Shown here: in pieces, positions 25,305 to 54,033 of the stretch
Numbering within the stretch: the first letter of the stretch is position 1
How the letters are laid out: every line of letters begins with the position of its first letter
Assembly: GCA_945865885.1 (NCBI GenBank)
Contig: CAMBEZ010000005.1
Location: forward strand, 1 to 64,000
Length of the DNA: 64,000 nt
Source of the DNA: Owenweeksia hongkongensis DSM 17368
GTDB taxonomy: Bacteria; Bacteroidota; Bacteroidia; Flavobacteriales; Schleiferiaceae
Reading direction: 5' to 3'
Position numbers and translations under genes: made by a program
Notes under the pieces: generated by a model
Database searches by the model: none
What the model saw: only the letters and a program-made list of their open reading frames with translations
Told to the model about the DNA's origin: nothing

Positions 25305-26783
25305 GTGGAAGCGAATAGGACTCTAATCATTGGCGCAGGAATAGCCGGAATTGCAACGGCAATACGGCAAGCTGTGGCCGGAAGAGAAGTGCATGTTTTT
25401 GAGGCAAATTCGTATCCGGGTGGCAAACTTTCGCGTTTTGAACTGGGCAGTTATCGGTTTGACGCGGGCCCCAGTTTGTTCACCATGCCCCATTGGGTGG
25501 AAGAGCTTTTTGAACTGGCCGGAGAGAATCCCGAAGAGCACTTTCCCTACCTAAAAGACGACGTGGCTTGCCGCTATTTTTGGACCGACGGCACGCGCCT
25601 GACCGCTTGGGCAGACGTTGCTCGATTCGCCGCTGAGGCCGAGAAGCAACTGGGCGAACCCAGTTCCAATGTTCGGAACCATTTGAGTCGCGTTCAGGTT
25701 CAGTACGATGCGACGGCTCCGTTGTTTCTGCAATCGTCCTTACATCGACTGAAAACCTACCGATGGAAGCACGTAAAATCTGCCGTCCGAGCTTTGCCGA
25801 AACTGGACTTGACCCGCACCATGGCGCAGGTACACGAGCGCGCCTTCAAAACGGAGAAAATGCGGCAATTGTTTCATCGTTTTGCTACCTACAACGGATC
25901 CTCCCCCTACCAAGCACCTGGTGTATTGGCGATGATTCCCCATTTGGAGCACGGAATTGGCACCTTTTTGCCCCAAAAAGGAATGGGGGACATTACGGAT
26001 TCGTTGGTGAAATTGGCCGAACGTTGTGGCGTTCAATTTCACTACAACGCTCCTGTTTCGCGCATACAGCATCAAGACGGCCGGGTAGGGGGCATTGAAC
26101 TTCAAGATGGAACGGTTTGGCAGTCGACAACGGTGGTGTCCAATATGGACGTTGTTCCAACGTACCGCAAATTGATGCCGGATTGGCCAGCCCCTGAGCC
26201 GGTTCTCAATCAGGAACGGAGCAGTTCGGCACTGATTTTTTATTGGGGCATGAAAGGCAATTTCCCAGAGCTTGGATTACACAATATTTTTTTCTCCAAC
26301 GACTATCCCGGTGAGTTCCGAGCTTTGTTTGAGGATAAGATGCCGGGGCCAGATCCTACCGTATACGTCAACATCACCAGTAAATTGGCCCAACAAGAAG
26401 CGCCGGAGGGGTGTGAAAATTGGTTTGTGATGGTCAATGCACCCGCAGATTACGGCCAAGATTGGGAAGCATTGCGGCAAGAAACGCGAAAATTGGTTTT
26501 GGAAAAATTATCTGCCATACTGAATCGTGATGTAGCTGCGTTAATCGTTGAGGAAACCTACTTGGATCCCCCTGGAATCGAACGAGCCACCAGTTCGTAC
26601 CGTGGTGCACTGTACGGTGCTGCTTCCAACAATCGTTTGGCAGCATTTTTGCGGCACCCCAACAAGGGAAACGGCCCGAAAGGTCTTTACCACGTGGGCG
26701 GAAGCGTTCACCCCGGCGGAGGGATTCCGCTTTGTTTAATGAGTGCAAAAATCACCAACGAATGGATTGTCGATCAATCTTAA
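25305..26783 (+). CDS. crtD: Carotenoid desaturase, CrtD type (1-hydroxycarotenoid 3,4-desaturase)
   Basis: 492-aa FAD-dependent desaturase of the CrtI/CrtD family. The N-terminal dinucleotide fold is LIIGAGIAGIATAIRQA, followed by FEANSYPGGKLSRFELGSYRFDAGPSLFTMP. The C-terminal FAD segment is GLYHVGGSVHPGGGIPLCLMSA. The N-terminal wording and GPSLFTMP segment fit Bacteroidota CrtD better than phytoene desaturase CrtI. The expected reaction is 3,4-desaturation of a 1-hydroxylated carotenoid on the way to myxol or saproxanthin, which fits the CruF-like gene about 2 kb downstream. A CrtI-type role is the main alternative. The GTG start lies four bases after a perfect -7 box. Two lipoprotein genes follow with overlaps. 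Confidence 0.8.
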   Translation: MEANRTLIIGAGIAGIATAIRQAVAGREVHVFEANSYPGGKLSRFELGSYRFDAGPSLFTMPHWVEELFELAGENPEEHFPYLKDDVACRYFWTDGTRLTAWADVARFAAEAEKQLGEPSSNVRNHLSRVQVQYDATAPLFLQSSLHRLKTYRWKHVKSAVRALPKLDLTRTMAQVHERAFKTEKMRQLFHRFATYNGSSPYQAPGVLAMIPHLEHGIGTFLPQKGMGDITDSLVKLAERCGVQFHYNAPVSRIQHQDGRVGGIELQDGTVWQSTTVVSNMDVVPTYRKLMPDWPAPEPVLNQERSSSALIFYWGMKGNFPELGLHNIFFSNDYPGEFRALFEDKMPGPDPTVYVNITSKLAQQEAPEGCENWFVMVNAPADYGQDWEALRQETRKLVLEKLSAILNRDVAALIVEETYLDPPGIERATSSYRGALYGAASNNRLAAFLRHPNKGNGPKGLYHVGGSVHPGGGIPLCLMSAKITNEWIVDQS

Positions 26784-28911: not shown

Positions 28912-29571
28912 ATGAACCGATCCTTGAAGATTGCCTGGCTGGTTTTAATAGCTACGTATGCCGTTGGAGCGGTGGCCCTTTTTACCCCGTTTCGGTCCTG
29001 GGTGCTGCCGTTGACCCCGGTACACTTGGTCATCAGCATGGCACTTTTGGTGCGGCACCAGCAATGGAAGCGCCGGTCCGCTGAAGTTGCTGCCCGGCTG
29101 GCTTTGGTGGGGTTGATTGCCTTCTTGGTGGAAGTGGCCGGCGTGCATACCGGTAAAATATTCGGCGTCTACGCGTATTTGCCTTCTTTGGGCCCGCAAT
29201 TGTGGGACGTCCCCTTGATTATTGGCGTGAATTGGGCGTTGTTGGCGGTGCTGGCTTTGAATAGTGTCCCGGAGGGCATCGATCGACCGATTCACCGAGC
29301 GGCGGTAGCGGCGGTGGCCATGACGTTGATGGATGCCTTGATTGAGAAATCCGCGCCGTTTATGGACATGTGGTGGTTTGTGGACGGGAAAGTGCCCATC
29401 GATAATGCCATTGGTTGGTTGTTAACGGGTTTCGTGGTGGCCTTGGTGCTTGCACCGGTGGTGCCGGATCGTGGAAAAAGTACCGAACGAAATCCCTTGA
29501 CGATTGGATTGTGGGCGGCTCAATTGACTTTTTTTGCATTGGCTTTGCTGGCCCAAAATCTCGTAAATTGA
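28912..29571 (+). CDS. cruF: Carotenoid biosynthesis membrane protein, CruF-like (DUF422)
   Basis: 219-aa integral membrane protein with about seven hydrophobic segments. Conserved pieces are [49 protein letters not shown] and [13 protein letters not shown]. These match the family of CruF and bisanhydrobacterioruberin hydratase, which add water across the C-1,2 double bond of acyclic carotenoid ends. Its product is the substrate expected for CrtD, encoded upstream in this window. The start at 28912 (MNRSLK) is chosen over an ATG at 28876, which would sit on the kdsA start. It is followed seven bases later by a T9SS cargo gene. Confidence 0.88.
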
Positions 29572-48791: not shown

Positions 48792-50606
48792 ATGCGCCAC
48801 CTGCTCCTCCTCAATTCCTACTTTTTACGCTATCCCAAACATTTGATAGGGGGAGTGATCTTTGTGGTAGCGTCGGTAGTGTTTCAAACGTATCCGGCCA
48901 TTTTTATTCGCGAGGCGTTTGGTTCGGTTGAAGTAGCCATTGAGAATGGCGTAACTAATGAATTGAATCAGAATCTTTTAAAGTACGGATTGCTGATCTT
49001 GTTATTCAGTGCATTGCGCGGGTTGTTTACTTTTTTGATGCGGCAAACACTCATCGTCATGAGCCGGCACATCGAATACGATTTGAAGAACGATCTCTAC
49101 GCGCAGTACCAACGATTGGATGCCGCTTTTTACCGCAAAAACAACACCGGTGATTTGATGAACCGCATATCCGAGGACGTCAGCCGGGTTCGGATGTACT
49201 TGGGTCCCGCCGTGATGTACAGCATCAATACTTTTTTTGCGACCGTGTTGACCTTGGTGTTCATGTTTCGGGTGGACGTTGCGCTCAGTTTTTGGGTATT
49301 GGCGCCCATGCCCTTGCTGGTATGGGCCATTTACCGCGTAAGCGACCGCATCAATAAGGCCAGTCATGCGGTACAGGAGCAGCAGTCTGCCATGAGCACC
49401 TTTGCGCAAGAGACGTTTTCTGGGATACGCGTATTGAAGGCATTTGCGGCGGAGAAAGCCCAATCGAGTCGGTACAAAAGCGCCTCGGAAAAGTCGTACC
49501 AAGTCAATGCGGAATTGTTTGAAATCAATGCGTTGTTTCAACCGTTGATGCTCCTTTTGGTAGGGCTTTCCACGTTGCTGGCGGTTTGGATTGGCGGTTT
49601 GGGCGTGGTAGAAGGAAAGTGGTCCTCCGGGGTTATTGCGGAATTCATTTACTACGTTAACCTGCTGACGTGGCCCATTGCAAGCATTGGCTGGGTCATG
49701 AGCTTGATTCAACGAGCAGAAGCCTCCATGGAGCGCATTCATCAGTTTTTGCAGGCGGAGCCCGTGGTTAACGGCCCTGCCAACGGCTACAAACCGGAAC
49801 ACATCCGGGGCGAGTGGACGTTTGAATCCGTTTCTTTTGTTTATCCGGACAGCGGGATAGAGGCGTTGCACGATTTTAATCTACGGGTTGAGCCCGGTGA
49901 ATTGGTTGTTTTAACCGGTAAAACGGGAAGCGGCAAAAGCACGTTGGTTCAACTCATGGTGCGCAGCATGGACCCTACTTCCGGACGTATTTTACTGGAC
50001 GGCGTAGACCTTCGGGAATGGGACTTGGAATACTTAAGAAAGCAAGTAGCATTTGTGCCGCAGGACGCCTTTCTTTTCTCCGACACGGTTGCCGAAAATT
50101 TGCGATTTGGAAATACGAGTGAGTTATCTGATTTGGAGTTGGTGCAAGCCGCACAGGCAGCTTCTGTACACGACGATGTTTTGGGTTTTGAAAAAGGGTA
50201 CGAAACGGTGGTTGGGGAACGCGGTGTGGCCTTGAGTGGTGGACAAAAACAACGTCTATCTATTGCGCGCGCTTTTCTCAAAAAAGCACCCGTCTTGGTT
50301 TTGGACGATTCGTTGAGCGCCGTGGACCCAAAAACGGAATCTTATATTGTTGAAATGCTCCCCAAATCCGTGGTGGGAAGGACCGCTTTTGTGGTGGCCC
50401 AACGCCTCTCTGTAGCCCCTTTTGCCTCTAAAATTGTTGTTCTTGAGGAGGGTAAATTGATTGAAATAGGAAATCACAAAGAGCTATTGGAAAACCAAGG
50501 TTTTTACGCTAGTTTGGTAGAACTTCAATCGCGTCGTACACGAGCCGATGCCGGAGAAGACCACCAAACCAAAAACCATGGACCTTTCACTGAAAATTTA
50601 CGATAA
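48792..50606 (+). CDS. ABC transporter half-molecule (permease + ATPase), degenerate catalytic site
   Basis: 604 aa: a type IV exporter membrane domain of six helices (residues about 1-320) and an ATPase domain. Walker A is LTGKTGSGKSTLVQL, Q-loop FVPQDAFLFSDT, signature LSGGQKQR. The Walker B end is VLVLDDSLSAVD, where the catalytic Glu is replaced by Asp. The switch histidine in the H-loop is replaced by Gln (FVVAQRLS). This pattern is typical of the non-hydrolysing half of heterodimeric exporters, but no partner gene is adjacent. Substrate unknown. ATG at 48792; a TTG 12 bases upstream lies inside the promoter box. The 3' end overlaps a regulator gene. Confidence 0.9.
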   Translation: MRHLLLLNSYFLRYPKHLIGGVIFVVASVVFQTYPAIFIREAFGSVEVAIENGVTNELNQNLLKYGLLILLFSALRGLFTFLMRQTLIVMSRHIEYDLKNDLYAQYQRLDAAFYRKNNTGDLMNRISEDVSRVRMYLGPAVMYSINTFFATVLTLVFMFRVDVALSFWVLAPMPLLVWAIYRVSDRINKASHAVQEQQSAMSTFAQETFSGIRVLKAFAAEKAQSSRYKSASEKSYQVNAELFEINALFQPLMLLLVGLSTLLAVWIGGLGVVEGKWSSGVIAEFIYYVNLLTWPIASIGWVMSLIQRAEASMERIHQFLQAEPVVNGPANGYKPEHIRGEWTFESVSFVYPDSGIEALHDFNLRVEPGELVVLTGKTGSGKSTLVQLMVRSMDPTSGRILLDGVDLREWDLEYLRKQVAFVPQDAFLFSDTVAENLRFGNTSELSDLELVQAAQAASVHDDVLGFEKGYETVVGERGVALSGGQKQRLSIARAFLKKAPVLVLDDSLSAVDPKTESYIVEMLPKSVVGRTAFVVAQRLSVAPFASKIVVLEEGKLIEIGNHKELLENQGFYASLVELQSRRTRADAGEDHQTKNHGPFTENLR

Positions 50607-51177
50607 GCTTTCCCTCGCCATGGGATCCAGCGGTACCGCTTACCGCGGTGGATTATTAGCGCTGGCACGAGCCTTTCAATCATTGCCGTCGTTTCGGCGC
50701 GGAAACCACGTTTGGAATTCTGGCGAATTACCCGCGGGACTGTACTATAATTTGGAAGCTGTTTTTGCGGAAGAAGATGTTCAGCCGGATGGGAAATCAA
50801 TTGTACGGCTTGTACTGCCGGATCAGTTGTTTTTTTGCGAAGAAACCTATTTTTACAACGAGCCGTCGACCACTCGAATGCGTTGCATTACCTCGGGTTC
50901 CGTTTGGCACGTTTCACCATCGGACTACGCCGCCGTTCACCGTGAATACGGTCTGGGCTACGATTTAATCAACCTTTTATCGTTGAAATCACTGGGAGAA
51001 TACCTTGCCCGTACCGCTCAATTGCTTCAGTGCACCCCAAAGGTCCGATTGGAACAGGCAGTTCGCCAGTATCCGTCCCTATTGTCAGCGTTGACGCGCG
51101 AAGAACTTGCCAGTTTTTTACTCTTGAGCAGGTCCAGTGTTCATCGCATTCTCCGAAAAACGTATTGTCGTGGCTAA
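50578..51177 (+). CDS. Crp/Fnr-like transcription regulator
   Basis: About 199 aa (219-range if the ATG at 50548 is used instead). The N-terminal beta-roll resembles a cyclic-nucleotide-binding fold (RRGNHVWNSGELPAGLYYNLEAVF, LPDQLFFCEET). A helix-turn-helix ends the protein (LTREELASFLLLSRSSVHRILRKTY). The ligand-site signature of true CRP is missing, so the signal is unknown. It overlaps the ABC stop by 29 bases and the next regulator gene by about 8, suggesting co-translation. Confidence in the start is low. Confidence 0.7.
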   Translation: MDLSLKIYDKLSLAMGSSGTAYRGGLLALARAFQSLPSFRRGNHVWNSGELPAGLYYNLEAVFAEEDVQPDGKSIVRLVLPDQLFFCEETYFYNEPSTTRMRCITSGSVWHVSPSDYAAVHREYGLGYDLINLLSLKSLGEYLARTAQLLQCTPKVRLEQAVRQYPSLLSALTREELASFLLLSRSSVHRILRKTYCRG

Positions 51178-51817
51178 GTTGTTAGAAGGTACCAAAGAAC
51201 GGGAGGAGGCACGTTTCATTTTACAGAACAGTTTCCGCGATCATTTGTCTGCAGATTGGCACGAGATTGAGGCTTGGGCCAAAGATTTGGAGGCTCGGTA
51301 CGAAGGACCGTTTGAATACAAACCTGGCGAGGTCTTTTGGGACATGAACAACACGCGGTCCGACCATTACTTCGTACTGGATGGTCTCGTTGCGGAAGTT
51401 TGGAGATCGGCCAACGACGAATCGTTTATCTACGCTTTTGTTGGAGGTGGAGAATACTGCACGAATGAATTTCAGTATTTATTGGGGGAGCCCTCGTGCA
51501 GTCGCTTTGAGGTAATTCAGCCAACACGTGTTCTCATTCTTCGGCAAGAAGAGGAACTTCAAGTTCGACAGTCTGCCAGCCCTTGGGAGCAACTCAGTTT
51601 CAAAGTGGGTAGGGCCATTCTTAAAAAGCGCCGCGAACGGCTGCGGTTGTTGAGTGGGGATCGCAAAACACACTTACTCCGCATTTTTGAAAAGTACCCC
51701 GGTGCCCAGGCGTGGACCACCAAAGAACAGTTAGCTTCCTATTTGGGGGTTTCCCGCGCCACGGTATACCGGATTATGGATGGACTGGGTTTATTTGCGT
51801 CAAAAGAAGTGCTATAA
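51170..51817 (+). CDS. Crp/Fnr-like transcription regulator (second of a pair)
   Basis: About 215 aa from the GTG at 51170 (a GTG at 51137 is also open). Beta-roll sequence FEYKPGEVFWDMNNTRSDHYFVLDGLVAEVWR is followed by the linker helix and a helix-turn-helix (WTTKEQLASYLGVSRATVYRIMDGLGL). Layout matches the preceding gene, although similarity between the two is low by eye. The pair overlaps and follows the ABC transporter, so both may regulate it. It ends before a strong hairpin shared with convergent coaE. Confidence 0.72.
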   Translation: MAKLLEGTKEREEARFILQNSFRDHLSADWHEIEAWAKDLEARYEGPFEYKPGEVFWDMNNTRSDHYFVLDGLVAEVWRSANDESFIYAFVGGGEYCTNEFQYLLGEPSCSRFEVIQPTRVLILRQEEELQVRQSASPWEQLSFKVGRAILKKRRERLRLLSGDRKTHLLRIFEKYPGAQAWTTKEQLASYLGVSRATVYRIMDGLGLFASKEVL

Positions 51818-53234: not shown

Positions 53235-53969
53235 ATGATGTTACTCAACGCAGCTGCCCACTTTGATCCTCAGGATTACGTTGGGTTTACTTTCTTCACG
53301 GGATACATGGCCATGATGGCGGCCACCGTATTCTTCTTGTTCGAACGAGGTCGGGTTGCCGACCAGTGGAAATCCTCCTTGTTGGTGTCCGGTTTGATCA
53401 CCGGTATCGCAGCCGTGCACTACTACTACATGCGCGATTACTGGATGGAAGCTGGTGAATCCCCCGTGGTTTTGCGCTACATCGACTGGACGTTGACCGT
53501 GCCTTTGATGTGCGTGGAGTTCTACCTCATCACCAAAAAAGCCGGTGCTAAAATGGGCTTGTTGTGGAAGTTGATCGCAGCTTCTGTAGCGATGTTGGTG
53601 TTGGGCTACGTAGGTGAGGCCGTCTACGCCGGTGAGCAGTACGCAACCCAGCAGTGGGTGTACGGTGCTTTGTCCGGATTGGCGTACTTCTACATTTTGT
53701 GGTTGGTATGGAAGGGCGACGTTGCTCAATTGGCTGCAAGCGCAGGTCCAAGTGTAGCAACGGCTGTACGTCACTTGCGCAACTTCGTGCTGGTGGGTTG
53801 GGCCATCTACCCAATTGGCTACATCATGGGTACTTACGGTGGTTTGTTCGGAATGGACTTTGGCCACGACGCAAGCGCACTGAACTTGTTCTACAACATT
53901 GCCGACGCCATCAACAAGATTGGTTTTGGTTTGGTCATCTACTCTTTGGCCATTTCGGACAACAAGTAA
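53235..53969 (+). CDS. Proteorhodopsin (light-driven proton pump)
   Basis: 244 aa, seven membrane helices. Retinal lysine K228 lies in ADAINK, with D224 as counter-ion partner. The helix-C motif RYIDWTLTVPLMCVEF gives D84 (proton acceptor), T88 and E95 (proton donor), the D-T-E signature of a proton pump. H62 matches the acceptor-histidine site. M92 is the spectral tuning position (green-absorbing type). G144 in WVYGALSG aligns, by my hand alignment, with bacteriorhodopsin W138 and the xanthorhodopsin antenna glycine. There is a 5' ATG pair (53235 or 53238). No retinal-forming dioxygenase gene is adjacent. A strong terminator follows. Confidence 0.97.
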   Translation: MMLLNAAAHFDPQDYVGFTFFTGYMAMMAATVFFLFERGRVADQWKSSLLVSGLITGIAAVHYYYMRDYWMEAGESPVVLRYIDWTLTVPLMCVEFYLITKKAGAKMGLLWKLIAASVAMLVLGYVGEAVYAGEQYATQQWVYGALSGLAYFYILWLVWKGDVAQLAASAGPSVATAVRHLRNFVLVGWAIYPIGYIMGTYGGLFGMDFGHDASALNLFYNIADAINKIGFGLVIYSLAISDNK

Positions 53970-54004
53970 TTTTCGTTTGGACAACTTTTTTTAAGTTGTT
54001 TGTG

Positions 54005-54033
54005 GGGCCGTCTCCTTGGAGGCGGCCCTTTTT
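54005..54033 (+). terminator. Rho-independent terminator after proteorhodopsin
   Basis: GGGCCGTCTCC (54005-54015), loop TT, GGAGGCGGCCC (54018-54028), then TTTTT. The stem has a single G-T wobble. It lies 36 bases past the rhodopsin stop and isolates it from the downstream locus. Confidence 0.85.

Follow-up and report, generated by a model that had tools for sequence, protein, structure and literature searches.

The window analysed here, i.e. the first 64,000 nucleotides of contig CAMBEZ010000005.1 (assembly GCA_945865885.1, Owenweeksia hongkongensis DSM 17368, family Schleiferiaceae of the Bacteroidota), carries the only rhodopsin gene of its genome (positions 53235..53969, + strand). Its product, a protein of 244 amino acids, is quite probably a green-absorbing, proton-pumping proteorhodopsin (PR) in which a glycine, Gly144, opens a fenestration where a xanthophyll made by the bacterium itself docks beside the retinal. 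The gene is under strong purifying selection, in a genus where no gene for the retinal-forming dioxygenase Blh was found in the three draft genomes searched.

The window protein matches PF01036 with 149.9 bits (cut-off 24.6). The top Protein Data Bank (PDB) chains by sequence, at 258 bits, are those of 9jou/9jov, i.e. of NM-R1, a proton-pumping rhodopsin whose name points to Nonlabens marinus, a marine member of the Bacteroidota. The AlphaFold model of the window protein (predicted local distance difference test, pLDDT, of 89) also has 9jou as its best PDB match (E = 8e-18, template-modelling scores 0.87/0.92, 58% identity). It is a proton-pumping PR of the Bacteroidota clade, separate from the xanthorhodopsins (XRs): in the rhodopsin tree it falls inside a Schleiferiaceae clade (support 94/93), and the XR group stands apart at 100/100. 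Two other rhodopsins, from metagenome-assembled genomes (MAGs) labelled Myxococcales and Proteobacteria (L025 and L047), nest among Bacteroidota sequences, owing to gene transfer or to mis-binning. Our alignment comprised 93 non-reference rows, the window protein and one duplicate included, plus the PDB chain sequences 3DDL, 8I2Z, 6NWD, 7B03 and 9JOV. The retinal-binding Lys of helix G, K228, is invariant in it, and D84, T88, M92 and E95 (53484..53519, +), which provide the counterion, the DTE proton-pump motif and the Met of green spectral tuning, are just as the earlier note gave them from the translation and do not vary in any of the 93 rows.

The same note had placed a glycine at the carotenoid fenestration, and the position holds. 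The segment 53661-53672 translates to Y-G-A-L, with Gly144 encoded by GGT (53664..53666, +), and it lies in helix E (H134-159), which is modelled confidently (pLDDT of about 84-95 for the block). The column aligns unambiguously with Gly in XR (3DDL, G156) and Kin4B8 (8I2Z, G153) and with Phe in green PR (7B03); Gloeobacter rhodopsin (6NWD) also has Gly, and bacteriorhodopsin, by count, has W138. All 93 aligned rows of Bacteroidota-type PRs have Gly, but as these are mostly closest relatives, the count reflects the default of the clade rather than the state of all PRs. A 2026 survey found the fenestration Gly in all the Bacteroidota PRs that it covered. To judge from these comparisons, G144 is the default state of the clade and no chance feature; being nearly universal among Bacteroidota PRs, it does not single out the window protein. 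Moreover, zeaxanthin-bound NM-R1 carries the same Gly, so that the protein class was already known and the window protein is a further member of it. The reading of the earlier note is thus supported as broadly right, yet it concerns an ordinary, expected property of Bacteroidota PRs. Since the Gly is invariant whatever else differs between the rows, it conveys no lineage-specific information, which favours another explanation, improbable in our view: the Gly would survive in the Bacteroidota PR clade as a phylogenetic relic, with the slot filled by lipid and the carotenoid unused.

Residues Y196-I197-M198-G199-T200-Y201 of helix F (53820..53837, +) align with the Kin4B8 sites Y204, A205, S208 and Y209, which surround the hydroxyl ring of the carotenoid. 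At these four sites the window protein has Y/I/T/Y (Y196, I197, T200, Y201), KR1 has Y/M/T/D and XR has Y/M/M/A (PMC12308411). From the same study, we know that zeaxanthin binding by Kin4B8 requires Ser208 (S208A retains 2% of the wild-type level), that efficient transfer requires Tyr209 (Y209F reduces energy transfer by about half), and that Tyr204 is conserved across all known carotenoid binders (PMC12308411). Y196 is also Tyr in green PR and hence does not discriminate alone. The 208 site is Thr in 83 of the 93 rows, while Tyr at the 209 site is confined to the window genus among these rows and to Kin4B8 among the references. That helix F retains the polar Thr and has a Tyr at a Kin4B8-like position argues against a relic with an unused slot.

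The presence of CrtD and CruF in the same window, also claimed earlier, was borne out. The crtD gene (1-hydroxycarotenoid 3,4-desaturase; 25305..26783, +) is firmly identified by NF042421 (633 bits, cut-off 500), and cruF, a carotenoid 1,2-hydratase homologue (28915..29571, +), matches PF04240 with 74 bits (cut-off 25) and TIGR03460 with 53.8 bits, which is below the cut-off of that model. On other contigs of the genome, crtI-crtB-idi are found together (contig C15, locus L085) and crtZ adjoins a fused crtYcd (contig C10, locus L130). The cyclase matches PF18916 with 118 bits and is also found with TIGR03462. The CrtZ homologue (G000:C10:25882-26376, G000 being the window genome) matches, with E = 2e-58, the CrtZ encoded beside CrtYcd in locus L116, although PF04116 misses it and no NCBIfam model matches it. 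An apparent absence of CrtZ (no PF04116 match in the genome) was therefore a false negative, overturned by the homologue adjoining CrtYcd, and an apparent absence of lycopene cyclase (no PF05834 match) was overturned by the TIGR03462 match to a CrtYcd-type cyclase; as both enzymes were found, we no longer consider a purely acyclic carotenoid. That PF04116 can miss a real CrtZ calls for caution in absence calls made with this model. No CrtW ketolase was recognised in the genome by the FA_desaturase search, whose matches are a full-length protein with a weak NCBIfam fatty-acid desaturase match and a contig-edge fragment, neither recognised as CrtW; 4-keto pigments are thus not expected. On a short contig (G000:C49:4-270, L136) there is a C-terminal fragment of the FA_desaturase family, alkane monooxygenase-like by eye and possibly foreign to the genome. 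According to established pathway knowledge, the set CrtB, CrtI, CrtYcd, CrtZ, CruF and CrtD suffices for zeaxanthin and saproxanthin-type pigments. With a lycopene cyclase, a CrtZ-type hydroxylase, CrtD and CruF all encoded, a 3-hydroxylated saproxanthin-type pigment, as proposed earlier, or zeaxanthin is plausible, and since no ketolase was recognised, such a pigment is the likely partner of the rhodopsin. Myxol, the other type suggested in the earlier note, additionally requires the 2'-hydroxylase CrtA-OH; Nonlabens spongiae makes it with this enzyme and an equivalent of the present set, the cyclase there being CrtY (PMC11855829). In the congeners, crtZ and crtYcd are retained, with a ratio of nonsynonymous to synonymous divergence (dN/dS) of about 0.05, another point against the carotenoid being unused.

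In the mechanism that we favour, Gly144 would open the fenestration between helices E and F, and the 3-hydroxy beta-ring of the endogenous xanthophyll would dock beside the retinal ring, where Tyr196, Thr200 and Tyr201 would hold the hydroxylated ring by hydrogen bonds or by locking it. The pigment would be zeaxanthin or a monocyclic saproxanthin-type carotenoid produced via the six enzymes above; once bound, it would absorb blue light, passing part of it to the retinal and/or speeding the photocycle. We infer carotenoid binding, energy transfer and the identity of the pigment for the window protein from its residues and gene complement. The suggestion of the earlier note that this rhodopsin could use a carotenoid antenna gains support from zeaxanthin-bound NM-R1 with its Gly, from Y196/T200/Y201 and from the hydroxylase and cyclase genes. 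A few points weigh against the favoured mechanism. The window genus has Asn instead of the Trp found in 88% of relatives at position 183, which in Kin4B8 is close to ring B; ring-B contacts may thus differ, and this alteration would also suit a relic. The Kin4B8 Thr157 site is Gly in the window protein, as it is in NM-R1. No retinal-forming gene was found in the draft genome, which bears on how much holo-pump a cell would contain. Lastly, the 2025 work on NM-R1 reportedly stresses acceleration of the photocycle, and the antenna may thus not be the main role. It is conceivable, if on the whole rather unlikely, that the carotenoid in the fenestration serves chiefly to stabilise the protein or to accelerate the photocycle, and that little energy passes from it to retinal; some carotenoids do bind Kin4B8 without efficient transfer (PMC12308411, PMC13093654). 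However, Tyr201 occupies the Kin4B8 Y209 site, whose hydroxyl favours efficient transfer (PMC12308411), and 3-hydroxy carotenoids, those predicted for the window genome, transfer best in Kin4B8.

Comparison of the rhodopsins from two congeners gives 3 differences in 244 amino acids and a dN/dS of 0.032, the lowest among the genes compared, and the rhodopsin neighbourhood is kept in the congener G002; taken together, this means that the rhodopsin is very probably in use. Between the window gene and that of locus L006, the synonymous divergence (dS) is 0.17, again the lowest among the genes compared (0.28-1.23 for the others), which suggests that its codons are strongly constrained or that the species exchanged the gene recently. 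Blh was not found in the window genome (94% complete) or in two congeners, one 84% and the other 91% complete, whether the search model was PF15461 or a profile derived from relatives, although the same searches do recover it in sister genera; nor was any RPE65-type oxygenase seen in the 40 genomes searched. The 91%-complete congener also lacks a rhodopsin match. Among relatives, Blh lies within the fetched rhodopsin flanks in 66 of 80; of the 53 whose flanks each reach 3 kb or more, 46 have it. In the Schleiferiaceae rhodopsin clade, Blh is close to the rhodopsin in 13 of the 14 other rows, and for the remaining one, L011, the locus includes hardly any sequence upstream. Two further genera of the family, with genomes 99% complete, also have a rhodopsin without a Blh match (L127, G003:C4:102185-102856; L128, G015:C3:244523-245191); these rhodopsins belong to a different rhodopsin clade, in which the Kin4B8 S208 site is Met instead of Thr. 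At L108 (G007:C47:11791-13743) and about 25 other loci, the lycopene cyclase CrtY and Blh share one open frame next to the rhodopsin, of about 660-700 codons, and seem to form a CrtY-Blh fusion; two Pfam matches in one frame show this for G007, G024 and G037, and frame length suggests it for the other loci.

Loss of Blh in the window genus would be the simplest reading of this distribution, though a missing stretch of the drafts may lie behind the absence. As the rhodopsin is nevertheless under selection, retinal scavenging or another route is implied. We lean towards a scenario in which the genus lost Blh along with the CrtY-Blh fusion still found next to the rhodopsin in close relatives, kept a selected, fenestrated rhodopsin and the xanthophyll pathway, and loads retinal scavenged from the lake community or supplied by an unrecognised enzyme. 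The same absence of Blh and of RPE65-type oxygenases could instead mean that the rhodopsin is non-functional for want of retinal. This we consider very unlikely, in view of the dN/dS of 0.032 between two species and of Aurantimicrobium minutum, whose rhodopsin functions although its genome has no known retinal genes (PMC7734400). Given this precedent, and since Bacteroidetes are named among other rhodopsin carriers lacking blh (PMC7734400), the phenomenon in itself has been described before.

Two further features of the rhodopsin gene, and one of its surroundings, deserve mention. A D-E loop insertion of three residues, Q135-Y136-A137 (53637..53645, +), is specific to the genus, with a gap in all 90 other rows; it, Tyr201 and Asn183 are seen in the sequence, and any effect they may have is inferred. 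Downstream, an intrinsic-terminator-like hairpin (54004..54029, +; an 11-pair stem followed by a T tract, a consensus match only) is present, and the rhodopsin unit is likely monocistronic. Upstream of the rhodopsin region, two tandem overlapping genes for Crp/Fnr-like regulators (50548-51817) are kept in the congener.

With the window genome, the carotenoid-assisted rhodopsin phototrophs gain an uncultured lineage whose helix F residues fit the hydroxy-carotenoid signature; its habitat would be freshwater if the congener MAG name RE-27jun17-9 is read rightly as one of a reservoir series. The closest solved structure is 9jou, entitled 'zeaxanthin-bound light-driven proton pumping rhodopsin NM-R1': NM-R1 shares with the window protein the DTE motif, the tuning-site Met, the fenestration Gly and a Thr at the Kin4B8 S208 site, but is only about 58-60% identical, has Pro instead of Tyr201 and Trp instead of Asn183, and lacks the D-E loop insertion. 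Kin4B8 (8I2Z, with zeaxanthin) has the fenestration Gly and the equivalents of Tyr204, a polar 208 and Tyr209, but it belongs to the XR family, at about 30% identity, with Leu at the tuning site and Thr157 where the window protein has Gly. KR1, the PR of Dokdonia eikasta, which binds lutein and zeaxanthin, is a flavobacterial PR sharing the Tyr and Thr of helix F, whereas the Y209 site is Asp (both known here from the table in PMC12308411). The XR of Salinibacter (3DDL) has in common the fenestration Gly and a Tyr (XR Tyr207); it differs in the hydrophobic Met/Ala at the hydroxyl-ring sites and binds a 4-keto carotenoid. Finally, lacking a recognised Blh, the lineage can serve to study where rhodopsin bacteria without known retinal genes get their chromophore: like the window genome, Aurantimicrobium minutum has a rhodopsin and no known retinal-synthesis gene (PMC7734400), but it is an actinobacterium with an XR-like rhodopsin and genes for C50 carotenoids.
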